A stretch of DNA of 64,000 bases from an uncultured Eubacteriales bacterium (lineage in GTDB: Bacteria > Bacillota > Clostridia > Oscillospirales > Oscillospiraceae), in the NCBI GenBank assembly GCA_900316745.1, contig ONEB01000002.1, forward strand, positions 94,241 to 158,240, written 5' to 3'. The notes beneath the pieces are model-generated. The model made no database searches. It had not been told where the DNA came from and worked only from the letters and a program-made list of their open reading frames with translations. Made by a program: the position numbers and the translations under genes. The first letter of the stretch is position 1. Every line of letters begins with the position of its first letter. Below are positions 13,386 through 43,860 of this stretch, piece after piece.

Positions 13386-13550
13386 GGTGTCATCGCGAAC
13401 GAGTGACGAGATTGCCGCGTCGCTGCGCTCCTCGCAATGACAGGGCTTTTGGGTCATCGCGAACCAGTGCGCACACTGGTGTGGCGATCTCTGGAAAAGG
13501 GAACGGATTGCCGCGTCGGCTCACGCCTCCTCGCAATGACAGGCTTTTTC
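13386..13550. repeat. Two CCTCGCAATGACA-type repeats
   Basis: Two units, each running from TCATCGCGAACxAGTG to CTCCTCGCAATGACAGG, lie in tandem between the DUF4867 and GH31 genes. The second contains a CCAGTG-CGCA-CACTGG hairpin; the related unit at 43798 has CCAGTGAC/GTCACTGG instead. A fragment also lies in the amidase gene at 38361. This gap holds no other recognisable signal apart from the GH31 ribosome site. Confidence 0.8.
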
Positions 13551-17027: not shown

Positions 17028-17144
17028 CCAAATCAAATCGCATGATTTGATTTGGAGAGGAAGAACGGGGGAGCGGATACGAAGCCGCTGGGCAGAGGCA
17101 AAGCCTTTGCCCGGCGGCGAAGTGGAGCGAGCCCGTTCAGACGA
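17028..17144 (+). repeat. 117-nt structured repeat, copy 1
   Basis: The unit begins with a perfect 12-bp hairpin CCAAATCAAATC-GCAT-GATTTGATTTGG. AGAGGAAGA follows, then an outer stem ACGGG/CCCGT enclosing GCGGATA, an inner hairpin GGGCA-AGGC/GCCT-TGCCC, and GGCGGCGAAGTGGAGC. The 3' end overlaps the mnmA stop codon. The same blocks in the same order, with compensating stem changes, lie at 32658-32773 inside a phage gene. Confidence 0.8.
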
Positions 17145-18144
17145 TGAACCCGCCGCCCAATACCCGGTCGCCGTCGTAAAGGACGGCGCTCTGTCCCGGC
17201 GCGGGCGCGCGCACCGGCTCGTCGCACGCGATGCGCACCCTGTCGCCCTCGGGATAGACGGTGCAGGGCGGGTTTTCCCACTTCGTGTGGCGGACGCGCA
17301 CCGTGGCGCGGATCGGCGTCTCGGGGCGCGGGATGATCCAGTTAAAGTTGCGTGCGAGCACGGTCGTCTTGAACAGCTCGTCCCAGTAGGCGAGCTCGAT
17401 CGTGTTTGTGCTCGCGTCGATGCGGGAGATGTAGACCTTGCGGTCGTTTATCAGTCCCGGTCGGCGCTGCCCGACCGTGTAGCGGCAGATGCCGTCGTGC
17501 GCGCCGACGACCTCGCCGTGCAGGACGAAAGCGCCCGGGCCGGGGAGCGGCGCGCGCCGCGCCATCCACGAGGCGTAGTCCTTGTCCGGGATGAAGCAGA
17601 TCTCCATGCTGTCGGGCTTGTGCGCGACGGGGATGCCGAAGCGCTCGGCAAGCGCGCGCACCTCCGCCTTTTCGTACCCGCCGAGGGGCAGAAGGAGTCT
17701 CTGAACCTGCTCGGGCAGGAGACGGCAGAGCATGTAGCTCTGGTCGTTCGCGGGGCGGCCCTTGCAGAGCGCCCCGTTTTCCGTGCGGGCGTAGTGCCCC
17801 GTGGCAATAAACTGCGCGTCCAGCCGGTCGGCGCACGCCAGGAGCGCTTTGAACTTCACCGTCGGGTTGCAGAGGATGCAGGGGTTCGGGGTCTGCCCCG
17901 CGCGGTAGGCCGCCTCGAACGGGGCGCAGACCTTTTCCTCCAGCTCGGCGCGGATGTCCTGCACGAGAAGCTCCGCGCCGAGACGCTCCGCGACGGCGGC
18001 GGCGTCGCGCGCGCCGTCGGGGGAAACGCCGTTTTCGAGGTACAGCCCCGTCACTTCATAGCCCTGCTCGCGCAGGAGCGCTGCGCACACCGCGCTGTCC
18101 ACGCCGCCGGAGAGGCCGAGGACGACGCGCTTAAAATTTCTCAT
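17137..18144 (-). CDS. mnmA: tRNA-specific 2-thiouridylase MnmA
   Basis: Thiolates U34 of tRNA(Lys, Glu, Gln) using ATP and sulfur relayed to its cysteines. Of 335 residues, SGGVDS (PP-loop) is at about residue 12, the first catalytic cysteine is in PNPCILCNP near residue 94, and the second is in EICFIPD near residue 191. ATGA overlap with mnmG makes a two-gene tRNA wobble-uridine modification operon. The last sense codon and stop lie in the 3' end of the 117-nt repeat, so the C-terminus may have been reset by that repeat. Confidence 0.96.
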
Positions 18145-30876: not shown

Positions 30877-32622
30877 ATGAACGAAATCCAAACCCCGCCC
30901 TTTGACATGGCGCGGGTGACGCAGCTGCTTCAGGTGCTGCGGCGCTACCGCGAGGGCAAGCGCTCCGTGGAGGCGCGGCTCATCGCCTCCGAGCAGTGGT
31001 GGAAGCTCAGAAACGCCGAGATGGCAGACCGCGAGGGACACCCCAAGCCCGGCTTTCGCTCGCGCTCGGGCTGGCTGCACAACGTCATCACCTCCAAGCA
31101 CGCCGACGCCATGGACGCCTGCCCGGAGCCGAACATCCTGCCGCGTGAGGCGACGGACAAGCCCGAGGCCGAGCGCCTCTCGCGCCTGATCCCCTGCATC
31201 CTGGAGCAGAACCGCTTCGAGCGCGCGTGGTCGGACGCGTGGTGGTCGAAGCTCAAGTTCGGCACGGGCGTCTACTGCGTCGCGTGGGACCCGGAAAAGC
31301 TCGGCGGCCTCGGCGACGTGGACATCCGCCGGTGCGATCTGTTAAACCTCTTCTGGGAGCCGGGCGTGTCGGACATCCAGCGCAGCAAGTACTTCTTCGA
31401 GGTCGCGTTCGTCGACCGCGACGAGCTCCGCGCGCGCTATCCCGAGCTCCCGATCGCCCAGACGCACGCCTCGCTCACGGCGGTGCTGCCCTATGACGAC
31501 CGCGTGGACATGTCGGAAAAGGTGCCGGTCATCCACTGCTACTACCACATCGGCAGCGCCCTGCACTACGCGCGCTTTACGCCGGACGCGGTGCTCTTCG
31601 CCACCGAGAACGACCCCGGCGGACTCGCCGAGACCGGGCTTTATGACCACGGCCGGTACCCCTACATCTTCGACGCGCTCTTCCCCGTGGAGGGCTCGCC
31701 CTGCGGCTACGGCTATGTCGATCTCTGCAAGCAGCCGCAGACGGAGATCGACCTCATGAAGACCGCCTTTGTGGAAAACACGATGAACGGCGCCAGACCC
31801 CGCTACTTCGTGCGGCGCGGCAGCGGCGTCAACCGCGAGCAGTTTCTGGATCTGAACGATCCGCTCGTCGAGGTCGAGGGGACGCTGGACGAAAATGCCA
31901 TCGCGCCGATCCGCCACGAGCGGCTCGACGGGGCGTACCTCGCCATGCTCGACCGCACGATCGCGGAGCTGCGCGAGACGAGCGGCAACACCGAGACCTC
32001 GACCGGCACCGTCTCGAGCGGCGTCACCGCCGCCTCCGCCATCGCCGCCCTGCAGGAGGCCAGCGGCAAGGGCAGCCGCGACAGCGCCATGTCCGGCTAC
32101 CGCGCCTACGCCGACCTCGTGGAGCTCGTCATCGAGCTCGTGCGGCAGTTTTATGACCTGCCGCGCCAGTTTCGCATCCTCGGCCCCGACGGGAGCGAGA
32201 CGTTCACCGCCTACTCCAACCGCGCCCTGAAGCTGCAGGAGGCGGGCGGCATGTACCGCCTTCCCGTGTTCGATATCCGCGTCGTGCCGCAGAAGCGCTC
32301 TGCGTATACGAAGATGGCGATGAACGACCTTGCGCTGCAGCTGTTTTCGCTCGGCTTTTTCCGCGCCGACATGGCAGACCAGGCGCTCCGGTGCCTCACG
32401 GTCATGGACTTTGACGGCAAGGACGCGCTCAGAAGGGTCATCGAGGCATCGCAGATGCCCGTAGGGGACGGCGTCCTCGACGTCCCGTCCGATGGCAGCG
32501 GCGGCAGCGACGGCAGCGGGCGGCAGGTTGCCGCCCCTACGGCGAGACCCGGCGCCGACCGCATGGAGCGCGCCCGTGACACCGCCCGCAGCGCCGCAAT
32601 ACCGAAAGAGAGGAGAACGTGA
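30877..32622 (+). CDS. Phage portal protein (P22-like)
   Basis: A portal of 581 residues, the dodecameric ring at the capsid vertex through which DNA enters. Recognisable are SRSGWLHNVITSKHADAMDA near residue 64, PCGYGYVDLCKQPQTEIDLMK near residue 275, and SSGVTAASAIAALQEASGKGSRD near residue 382, which resemble P22-type podoviral portals. The last 50 residues are odd: two palindromic repeat units (32461-32488, 32517-32540) are translated as part of a Gly/Ser tail, extending the original C-terminus. AAAGGAG precedes the ATG. Its stop overlaps the scaffold gene start. Confidence 0.9.
   Translation: MNEIQTPPFDMARVTQLLQVLRRYREGKRSVEARLIASEQWWKLRNAEMADREGHPKPGFRSRSGWLHNVITSKHADAMDACPEPNILPREATDKPEAERLSRLIPCILEQNRFERAWSDAWWSKLKFGTGVYCVAWDPEKLGGLGDVDIRRCDLLNLFWEPGVSDIQRSKYFFEVAFVDRDELRARYPELPIAQTHASLTAVLPYDDRVDMSEKVPVIHCYYHIGSALHYARFTPDAVLFATENDPGGLAETGLYDHGRYPYIFDALFPVEGSPCGYGYVDLCKQPQTEIDLMKTAFVENTMNGARPRYFVRRGSGVNREQFLDLNDPLVEVEGTLDENAIAPIRHERLDGAYLAMLDRTIAELRETSGNTETSTGTVSSGVTAASAIAALQEASGKGSRDSAMSGYRAYADLVELVIELVRQFYDLPRQFRILGPDGSETFTAYSNRALKLQEAGGMYRLPVFDIRVVPQKRSAYTKMAMNDLALQLFSLGFFRADMADQALRCLTVMDFDGKDALRRVIEASQMPVGDGVLDVPSDGSGGSDGSGRQVAAPTARPGADRMERARDTARSAAIPKERRT
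32461..32540. repeat. Two palindromic repeats inside the portal reading frame
   Basis: GTAGGGGACGGCGTCCTCGA-CGTCCC and GCGGGCGGCAGGTTGCCGCC-CCTAC are both read in frame and encode the Gly/Ser-rich portal tail. Confidence 0.8.
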
Positions 32623-33167
32623 TGAACGAAGAAACGAACATGGTGACCGAACAAACACCAAATCGGATCGAAGGATCCGATTTGGAGAGGAAGACCGGAG
32701 GCGCGGATATGGAGACGGCGGGCGGCGATTTATCGTTGTCCGGCGGCGGAATGGAGCAAGTCCGGTCTGACGAATCCCCTGCCATGATCGCGGAGGACGA
32801 GGCTATCAGAGCCCACTTCGACCGGCTCTGGCAGGAGGCGGAGACGTTTTCGCGCGAGGTGCCGGGGTTCGACCTCGCGCGGGAACTGGAAGACGACGCC
32901 TTTGCCGCGCTCCTGAGCCCCCGCCGGGGGCTGACGCTGGAGCAGGCGTATTTCGTCCGCCACGGCAGAGCGCTGCTCGCCGCCGCCGAACGCGCCGCCG
33001 CCGAGCGCGTCTCCGCCGCCCTGCAGGCCAGCCGCCGCGTCCCCGCCCCGCTGGAGAGCGCCGCCGCGACGCCGGGCTTCCGCTGGGACAAGGACTCCGG
33101 CGCCAAGGCGAGAGAAGCCCTGAAAGCCCGCATCCGCAAGGGAGAGAAGATTTACCCCCACGGTTAA
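32619..33167 (+). CDS. Putative scaffolding protein with an embedded structured repeat
   Basis: A 182-residue acidic, helical protein between portal and capsid genes, the usual position of a scaffolding protein. Residues about 14-52 (PNRIEGSDLERKTGG onward) are encoded by the 116-nt structured repeat 32658-32773, giving a low-complexity Gly/Asp/Glu insert. The rest (from AEDEAIRAHFDRLW) is alpha-helical with a C-terminal basic tail (KAREALKARIRKGEK), as in scaffolds that bind the coat protein. It starts within the portal stop. Function is positional inference. Confidence 0.65.
   Translation: MMNEETNMVTEQTPNRIEGSDLERKTGGADMETAGGDLSLSGGGMEQVRSDESPAMIAEDEAIRAHFDRLWQEAETFSREVPGFDLARELEDDAFAALLSPRRGLTLEQAYFVRHGRALLAAAERAAAERVSAALQASRRVPAPLESAAATPGFRWDKDSGAKAREALKARIRKGEKIYPHG
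32658..32773 (+). repeat. 117-nt structured repeat, copy 2, inside a coding sequence
   Basis: Begins with the perfect 12-bp hairpin CCAAATCGGATC-GAAG-GATCCGATTTGG, then AGAGGAAGA, outer stem CCGGA/TCCGG, GCGGATA, inner hairpin GGGC-CGAT/ATCG-GTCC, and GGCGGCGGAATGGAGC. Compared with copy 1 at 17028, stems changed on both strands while unpaired blocks stayed the same. Confidence 0.8.
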
Positions 33168-37924: not shown

Positions 37925-38593
37925 ATCAAAATCATCGAACACAACTGGGCGTGGGCGCACGGGCTGTCGCGGCGGACGGCGACCGAGGCGATCGTGCTGC
38001 ACCATGCCGCGGCGATCACCGCCGCGCCGGAGGATATCCATGCCTGGCACCTGAAAAACGGCTGGGCGGGCTTCGGATATCACCTCTACGTCCGCAAGGA
38101 CGGCAGCGTGCACCGGGGCCGCCCGATCTGGGCGTCCGGCGCGCACACCCTGAATTTCAACAGCCGCACCCTCGGCGTCTGCTGCGAGGGCAATTACGAC
38201 GTCGAGACCGTCATGCCGCCCGCGCAGCTGGAGGCGCTGCGCGCGGTGCTGGGGTACCTGCGCGGGCTGTACCCCGACGCGGCGGTGCGCTGCCACCGGG
38301 ACTACAACGCCACCGCCTGCCCGGGGAAGCATTTCCCGCTCGCGGCGGTGCTGGAGGAGGGAGAGACGGATTGCCGCGTCGCTTCGCTCCTCGCAATGAC
38401 AAATCAGGAGGAGGATGATCAAATGCAGCGATTCAAAACCGTAGGCGAGCTGCCGGAGCCGTATCGGGCGGAGATCCAGGCGCTTATCGACAAGGGGCAC
38501 CTGCGCGGCAAAGGCGGCGACGCCGGACTCGATCTCACCGAGGACATGGCGCGCGTGCTCATTGTATGCGCGCGCATGGAGGGCGTCGTATGA
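37925..38593 (+). CDS. N-acetylmuramoyl-L-alanine amidase (endolysin), apparent ATC start
   Basis: A peptidoglycan amidase of about 222 residues. The Amidase_2 zinc ligands are visible: His in AIVLHHAAA, His in RCHRDYN and Cys in ATACPGK. The true N-terminus IKIIEHNWAWAHGLSRR is in frame from an ATC at 37925, just behind GAAGGGAGAGAG; the first conventional start, GTG at 37994, would remove the first zinc ligand strand. Residues about 145-160 are encoded by a dispersed repeat (38361-38402), and the C-terminal 56 residues have their own AGGAGGAGG and ATG (38423), so a separate small protein may also be made. Holin follows with ATGA overlap. Confidence 0.9.
   Translation: MKIIEHNWAWAHGLSRRTATEAIVLHHAAAITAAPEDIHAWHLKNGWAGFGYHLYVRKDGSVHRGRPIWASGAHTLNFNSRTLGVCCEGNYDVETVMPPAQLEALRAVLGYLRGLYPDAAVRCHRDYNATACPGKHFPLAAVLEEGETDCRVASLLAMTNQEEDDQMQRFKTVGELPEPYRAEIQALIDKGHLRGKGGDAGLDLTEDMARVLIVCARMEGVV
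38361..38402. repeat. CCTCGCAATGACA-type repeat inside the amidase reading frame
   Basis: GAGACGGATTGCCGCGTCGC-TTCGCTCCTCGCAATGACA is read in frame as ETDCRVASLLAMT, joining the amidase domain to its C-terminal domain. Same family as 13386 and 43798. Confidence 0.85.
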
Positions 38594-43797: not shown

Positions 43798-43860
43798 TGT
43801 CATTGCGAACCAGTGACCGATGTCACTGGTGTCGCACAGCTTCGCTCCTCGCAATGACAT
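43798..43860. repeat. CCTCGCAATGACA-type repeat
   Basis: TGTCATTGCGAACCAGTGAC to TCGCTCCTCGCAATGACA, enclosing the hairpin CCAGTGAC-CGAT-GTCACTGG. Confidence 0.85.

Follow-up and report, generated by a model that had tools for sequence, protein, structure and literature searches.

A two-hairpin repeat of mostly uncultured gut bacteria, often placed with its CGTC-tagged end against the ends of tRNA-type genes

The stretch of DNA analyzed here (the window; 64,000 nt from an uncultured Oscillospiraceae genome, G000) carries two copies of a small structured element, both on the + strand. Copy 1 (117 nt; 17028..17144) lies between a transporter-like gene and mnmA, and copy 2 (116 nt; 32658..32773) is embedded in frame near the start of a prophage gene, occupying approximately codons 14-52. 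A sequence-only reading of the window had described these copies as agreeing in length to one base, sharing unpaired blocks and differing in a paired fashion in three stems, and our analysis confirmed that observation. A covariance model built from ten MAFFT-aligned copies of G000 (R1) found only these two places in the window at E <= 1, with 133 bits for copy 1 and 121.8 bits for copy 2.

The 3' end of copy 1 contains the stop codon of mnmA (ORF 17137-18144, - strand), as previously noted: the TCA at 17137..17139 is read as TGA on the - strand. The mnmA genes of congeners end similarly (TCAGATGAT in G205, TTACACGAT in G201), and an R1 search of three congener mnmA loci (L222, L227 and L228) did not find the element, so that the mnmA tail at copy 1 may be partly native rather than supplied by the element. 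The host gene of copy 2 (32619..33167, + strand) is located between the portal and major head protein genes, in line with its earlier description as a phage gene. Residues 59-178 of its product match the PHROGs family phrog_13908, and this matching part begins after the element. Copy 2 also occurs in two IMG/VR contigs, being identical over the 290 nt compared in one (L207) and showing 98% protein identity in the other (L208). An exact empty site was obtained neither for copy 2 in distant homologues of the host gene, because the first 45-60 residues were unaligned in most of them, nor for copy 1 in congeners, because its neighbouring genes lie there on different contigs or in different places.

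From 5' to 3', the element is composed of a first hairpin (hp1), a purine-rich, AGAGGAAG-like linker, and a second hairpin (hp2) in which stem A, internal loops, stem B and the returning strand of stem A follow one another, ending with YCTGACGN. In copy 1, hp1 (17028..17055) has a perfect 12-bp stem with a 4-nt loop, and hp2 (17063..17138) measures 76 nt, both delimited by fold and covariation. The predicted fold of hp2 pairs 17063-17069 with 17132-17138 (stem A) and 17084-17099 with 17103-17118 (stem B), with three purine-rich internal loops. The terminal GACG, which reads CGTC on the - strand and is the side by which other copies adjoin RNA genes, was placed at 17140..17143 in copy 1 by alignment and flanks and at 32769..32772 in copy 2 by flank comparison. 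Across copies, hp1 forms a largely perfect palindrome, judged by eye to measure roughly 10-16 bp, whose sequence varies freely; the internal loops of hp2 lie around GCGGATAYGRAG and CGRARTGGAGC, and the apex of stem B is highly variable in length. The stronger R1 matches span about 81 to 161 nt. One copy in G000 (L008:1400-1574) is split by about 50 nt carrying a CCAAATC..GATTTGG palindrome of their own.

The + strand of copy 1 is predicted to fold at -70 kcal/mol, as compared with -34.2 (sd 3.3) for dinucleotide shuffles (z = -10.8), and that of copy 2 at -60.2 (z = -7.2), the - strand folds being weaker (z = -7.5 and -4.0, respectively). Compensating changes, the basis on which selection for structure had been proposed, were beyond chance in two alignments, each compared with 500 shuffles. 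In the MAFFT alignment of ten copies from G000, counted over the named structure, 94.8% of cells pair (shuffled mean 80.3%) and two-sided changes occur in 22 of 38 pairs (shuffled mean 11.0); no shuffle reached either value, and both were also far above those of slid partners. An alignment of 26 copies from 22 genomes (four genomes giving two rows each; structure taken from the fold of one copy) had 93.2% of hp2 cells paired and two-sided changes in 21 of 25 hp2 pairs (shuffled mean 12.8; 0/500 shuffles), while the count of further pair types was reached by 8/500 shuffles and just half of the sequences form pairs 52-113 and 53-112.

Three G.U pairs are fixed in hp2, at columns 49-116, 60-106 and 70-96 (18, 24 and 20 of the 26 rows), so that G.T fills 62 of the 78 cells at these positions. 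Outside them, G.T pairs outnumber A.C pairs 10 to 1 in 544 cells of the 26-copy alignment and 7 to 2 in 353 cells of the 10-copy alignment. The excess is smaller on model-fitted alignments with redundant rows (43 versus 22 in 2577 cells of hp1; 304 versus 75 in 4706 cells of hp2, where 209 of the 304 belong to two fixed positions per alignment) than on alignments not fitted to the model. Because G.T outnumbers A.C outside the fixed wobble positions, the + strand is the one whose fold is maintained, a pattern that fits an RNA and a single-stranded DNA hairpin equally and is thus compatible with a role as RNA.

Among gut bacteria, most of them uncultured, genomes have accumulated copies of the element. 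A blastn search with copy 1 returned 13 matches in G000, and R1 returned 19 matches there, at 16 places. Many further covarying copies were found by R1 in relatives: all 10 genomes of the genus carry the element (1 to 86 matches each, with one in G153 and in G200, 31 in G201 and 86 in G079), as do 86/200 genomes and 57/106 genera of the bacterial family, at most 18 candidates having been scored per genome. Since the seed of R1 lacked a divergent copy (L013) and an interrupted one (L008/L011), distant subtypes are under-counted. In a phylum sample of 398 genomes, where the order is represented by just 4 others, matches occurred in two genomes, both of the element's own bacterial family, and in none of the other 396. 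An exact pattern search yielded three stretches in viral contigs and 21 in named genome contigs, most of the latter titled uncultured Oscillospiraceae, Ruminococcaceae, Clostridiales or Clostridia. Two of these 21 (L235 and L241) are in contigs whose titles, Flavipsychrobacter sp. and Chloroflexaceae MAGs, name other phyla; they may be true copies, chance matches or binning errors.

Some copies form inverted doubles of about 185 nt that share a single hp1 and have GACG facing outward at both ends. These sit within longer genome-specific repeats; three occur among the 16 places of G000 and others in further genomes, and 26 overlapping pairs of opposite-strand matches were counted, some of them based on weak second matches. 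Tandem arrays of the element were found beside tRNA-Glu. Rfam gave no match on the element, either at gathering score over the whole window or above gathering score in a scan up to E = 10 of ten element loci. Scanning 80 sources (two of them scanned before) at gathering score returned tRNA, tmRNA, one 5S rRNA and one Gut-1 RNA; the latter (RF01706, 65.6 bits; L113:951-1028) begins next to a weak copy of the element, on its hp1 side.

The surprising result, absent from the first reading, is that the element docks on structured RNA genes. Among the best-scoring matches listed, 198/225 were kept as non-redundant, weak ones included, and docking was tested in the 155 of these that have GACG at or close to their 3' end and whose right flank is distinct; the other 43 had no GACG, were weak or truncated matches, or had a flank in common. 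A tRNA or tmRNA gene called by ARAGORN began or ended at -1 to +4 nt of the GACG in 47/155 copies, and none did so at +5 to +60 nt (both among the matches listed), so the 3' GACG end docks on tRNA and tmRNA gene ends, exact to within a few bases. The docking is directional: on the hp1 side of the same 155 copies, among the matches listed, no such gene end was found between -8 and +12 nt, and 13 were found at +13 to +55 nt. Sixteen docked copies lie on the same strand as the RNA gene, at its mature 5' end, and 31 on the opposite strand; in 25 of these 31 the junction is exactly at the CCA, with GACG followed directly by TGG, its complement. The occurrence of both orientations relative to the RNA genes argues for placement at the DNA level. 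Two rows excluded from the set, both without GACG, were also close to tRNA genes: the weak 58-nt match L059:1736 has tRNA-His 5 nt away on its 3' side, and L071:1551 has tRNA-Val 10 nt away on its 5' (hp1) side.

The remaining 108/155 tested copies are not at a tRNA or tmRNA called by ARAGORN, and in G000 only 3 of the 16 places dock on either. Inspection of flanks beyond the ARAGORN calls added 3 tmRNAs, 6 tRNA-3'-end-like sequences and 4 parS-like stretches found by pattern, as well as one 5S rRNA whose 5' end, as placed by Rfam, is 1 nt from the GACG end. The parS-like flanks resemble the parS motif (TGTTnCACGTGnAACA); the 3' end of the element adjoins such palindromes at L035:205, L070:1443, L070:4204, L109:192 and L028:1501, the L070:4204 flank having been recognized by eye beside the four found by pattern. 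At the L028 place in G000 (the same as L076), a second parS-like stretch lies directly upstream of the copy. A general rule of placement at the foot of hairpins was not supported outside RNA genes, as a simple search for stems of at least 6 bp showed no clustering of them at the junction in 108 non-tRNA flanks.

At seven loci (L123, L142, L124, L094, L073, L141 and L040), a second type of repeat, a multi-hairpin module of roughly 120-155 nt, was seen to the right of the element. On one side it has an intact tRNA gene and on the other a duplicate of roughly the last 20 nt of the same tRNA; the place of the intact gene is taken by a tRNA-like sequence without an ARAGORN call in L123 and by a second module in L142. 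The copied tRNA end reaches the CCA and adjoins GACG in 5/7 loci, the CCA part being missing in L141 and L073, and in several of the seven the far end of the module is complementary to the tRNA T arm.

The sequence-only reading had suggested a small mobile RNA or MITE-like element, possibly with a ribozyme or regulatory function, and this interpretation was partly supported. The element is indeed small, structured, MITE-like and multi-copy; a ribozyme or regulatory role found no direct support, and the adjoining of RNA genes in both orientations points to placement at the DNA level. We nevertheless weighed the possibility that the element is a functional RNA, a leader or trailer made in one transcript with tRNAs that aids processing, stability or regulation. 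Such a role would be in accord with the strong covariation, the G.U pairs conserved at fixed places, the G.T excess outside them, the purine-rich internal loops on one strand and the docking on RNA gene ends. However, the strand-biased pairs outside the fixed places are few (G.T in 10 of 544 cells), and folded single-stranded DNA would give the same bias. The 16 to 31 split in orientation, the 108 tested copies away from tRNA and tmRNA genes, the copies inside a phage gene and between ordinary genes, and a tmRNA site that is empty in two congeners also speak against an RNA role, which we therefore regard as unlikely.

That tmRNA site shows presence and absence of the element at one place. The tmRNA gene was matched in 7/10 genomes of the genus, six of them with a readable upstream flank. 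The flank is filled in G000, G079 and G201, with 0, 0 and 3 nt, respectively, between GACGN and the tmRNA; it is empty in G153 and G200, whose flanks are closely alike, and holds another repeat in G204. R1 matched only the three filled flanks. The genomes compared belong to different species of one genus, and exact borders could not be read from the empty flanks. In the bacterial family, the element was present at 4/30 tmRNA flanks (G012, G004, G045 and G019), all four confirmed by R1.

Subtypes of the element are genome-specific. Among 151 near-complete copies, 127 came from genomes with more than one, and for 91 of these 127 the nearest relative was in the same genome (shuffled mean 7%, maximum 14%). 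At the tRNA-Gln junction, G000, G136 and G174 carry three different subtypes that are 50-55% identical to one another, while each is more similar (76%, 83% and 68%, respectively) to a copy at another place of its own genome; the Gln-Lys spacer in the same tRNA cluster of G181 is 2 nt. By contrast, several copies at the tRNA-Cys, tRNA-Thr and some of the tmRNA sites examined are closest to a copy from a different genome. On balance, repeated insertion at the same places is favoured over inheritance, because of the filled and empty tmRNA flanks, the own-genome relatives and the unlike subtypes at one junction; concerted evolution could be an alternative source of the genome-specific subtypes. 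No transposition event between near-identical strains was observed. Away from RNA genes, several copies lie inside longer genome-specific repeats, so that the 3' border is not always the element's own end. Across 149 flank pairs, target duplication showed no clear excess over shuffled pairings, which sets the element apart from MITEs that have terminal inverted repeats and a target duplication.

As the repeat has multiplied and one of its ends often lies against the end of a tRNA-type gene, these results suggest that it is a small mobile element that lands by an unusual rule and whose mover our searches did not find. The reading that we favour, with modest confidence, is that it is probably a non-autonomous, REP/MITE-like mobile DNA hairpin repeat with a CGTC tag. 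It would spread within a genome by insertions that join the GACG end to the flank of a structured sequence, preferably a tRNA gene, at its mature 5' end or its CCA 3' end, or tmRNA, at its 5' end, and the likeliest chemistry would be a single-strand, hairpin-recognizing insertion by an enzyme acting in trans. The multi-copy spread, the covariation, the directional docking, the presence and absence at one orthologous site and the genome-specific subtypes are computed results, whereas transposition as the origin of the copies, the single-strand route and the enzyme are inferred. Integron attC sites, likewise imperfect hairpins of a single strand, with mismatches that are conserved and a terminal stem that varies, offer an analogy. 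More tentatively, and in our view less probably than not by a clear distance, landing sites might be found through the folded tRNA, tmRNA or other structured sequence itself, as single-stranded DNA or as mature RNA, the CGTC end being joined at the boundary of the mature RNA; the element would then parallel, in bacteria, the tRNA-targeting transposons, with an undescribed enzyme as its mover. Insertion guided by folded DNA or RNA would, if it takes place, be a new targeting principle in bacteria, and it would help to explain changes in tRNA-cluster spacers between genera.

The searches for a mover covered PF01797, one RAYT query and PF00078. A REP mobilized by a RAYT or IS200-type Y1 transposase, as proposed for GTAG REPs, would fit the tagged hairpin, the inverted doubles and the undetected target duplication, and in G178 an element does lie about 130 nt upstream of the likely start of a RAYT gene. 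However, the IS200-type Y1 transposase domain PF01797 was present in only 5/14 element-rich genomes and absent from G079 with its 86 matches. The RAYT query matched in only 12/200 genomes, and just 2 of 16 RAYT loci scanned had an R1 match at E < 0.01, the second being about 1 kb from the gene in G139 and cut off at the contig end. In eight RAYT flanks inspected, the repeat was mostly a different one. With G178 as the one exception, the element does not flank the RAYT genes of the loci scanned, and we consider a mover of this kind quite improbable. RAYT genes of the bacterial family (L253-L259 and L265) are mostly flanked by a repeat of their own, with GGGACGGTTCT inside a palindrome.

A little less likely still is a spread of the palindromes by replication, through template switching at hairpins and repair by host enzymes, with no dedicated transposase. 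The mostly perfect hp1 palindromes, tandem arrays, inverted doubles, negative mover searches and flanks able to fold themselves are all consistent with such a process, but the conserved internal loops, the tag and the single docking orientation imply specific recognition. A SINE-like retroelement inserted by a reverse transcriptase is highly improbable: the exact 3' junction at mature tRNA ends does resemble the joining of a template end, but RVT_1 (PF00078), found in 7/25 genomes searched, was in none of the 10 genus genomes, whose completeness is 57-97%; the 86-match genome, at 97%, is one of them. The neighbours of the single copy in G153 include integrase-like and primase-like frames, recognized by eye, with no clear partner among them.

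The mobile DNA repeat that we favour has its closest published likeness in the CGTC-tagged REPs. No named family had been recognized in the sequence-only reading; this agrees with Rfam, but several traits match those repeats as set out in passages of Di Nocera et al. 2013 (PMC3733652). There, CGTC REPs are given 8-9 bp stems and 4-5 nt loops within 20-40 bp in all, a CCA-like tail at the other end, frequent inverted dimers, copies inside genes and no transposase gene partner, and CGTC repeats are named in five phyla (Proteobacteria, Chlorobi, Bacteroidetes, Spirochaetes and Thermotogae). Common to these and the element are the unpaired CGTC at one hairpin end, the many copies, the inverted dimers and the occurrence inside a gene, and for neither was a transposase partner found. 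In contrast, the element has about 117 nt, two hairpins, conserved internal loops and a variable apex, and lies outside the size and stem ranges in those passages (PMC3733652), hp2 alone measuring 76 nt in copy 1. On the side where CGTC REPs have the CCA-like tail the element has hp1, and the sequence across the junction from its CGTC is often the CCA of a tRNA. As far as these passages of PMC3733652 go, the element works like a REP while being set apart from the four published CGTC families, and they contain no description of docking on tRNA gene ends. Titles and abstract beginnings in the literature likewise yielded no description of the element or of palindromic repeats docking on tRNA ends. 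CGTC-type palindromic repeats are described in these passages without a known mover (PMC3733652); the present family offers a large, specific structure, 1 to 86 matches within a genus and a near-exact landing rule at tRNA ends.

Two further groups invite comparison, in part on the same passages (PMC3733652). GTAG REPs and REPINs with RAYT are, like the element, tagged hairpins with inverted pairs, thought to be non-autonomous mobile DNA, but they differ in tag and size and in having a RAYT partner, which was not found here. Rickettsia palindromic elements are palindromic repeats, some of them CGTC-tagged, that lie in frame in genes as copy 2 does; they belong to another lineage and are likened to the element by description only.

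The window holds other palindromic repeats as well. Eight copies of GTAGGGGCGGCAATCTGCCGCCC (at 2880, 11432, 21322, 30833, 34335, 34399, 38984 and 40145) look like a GTAG-tagged REP family. Another repeat, GATTGCCGCGTCGCT..CTCGCAATGACA (13410-13442, 38369-38401 and 43827-43859), reads TGTCATTGCGAG.. on the other strand and resembles the classical TGTC/CGTC REPs; at one locus (L002), the element adjoins a repeat of this type.
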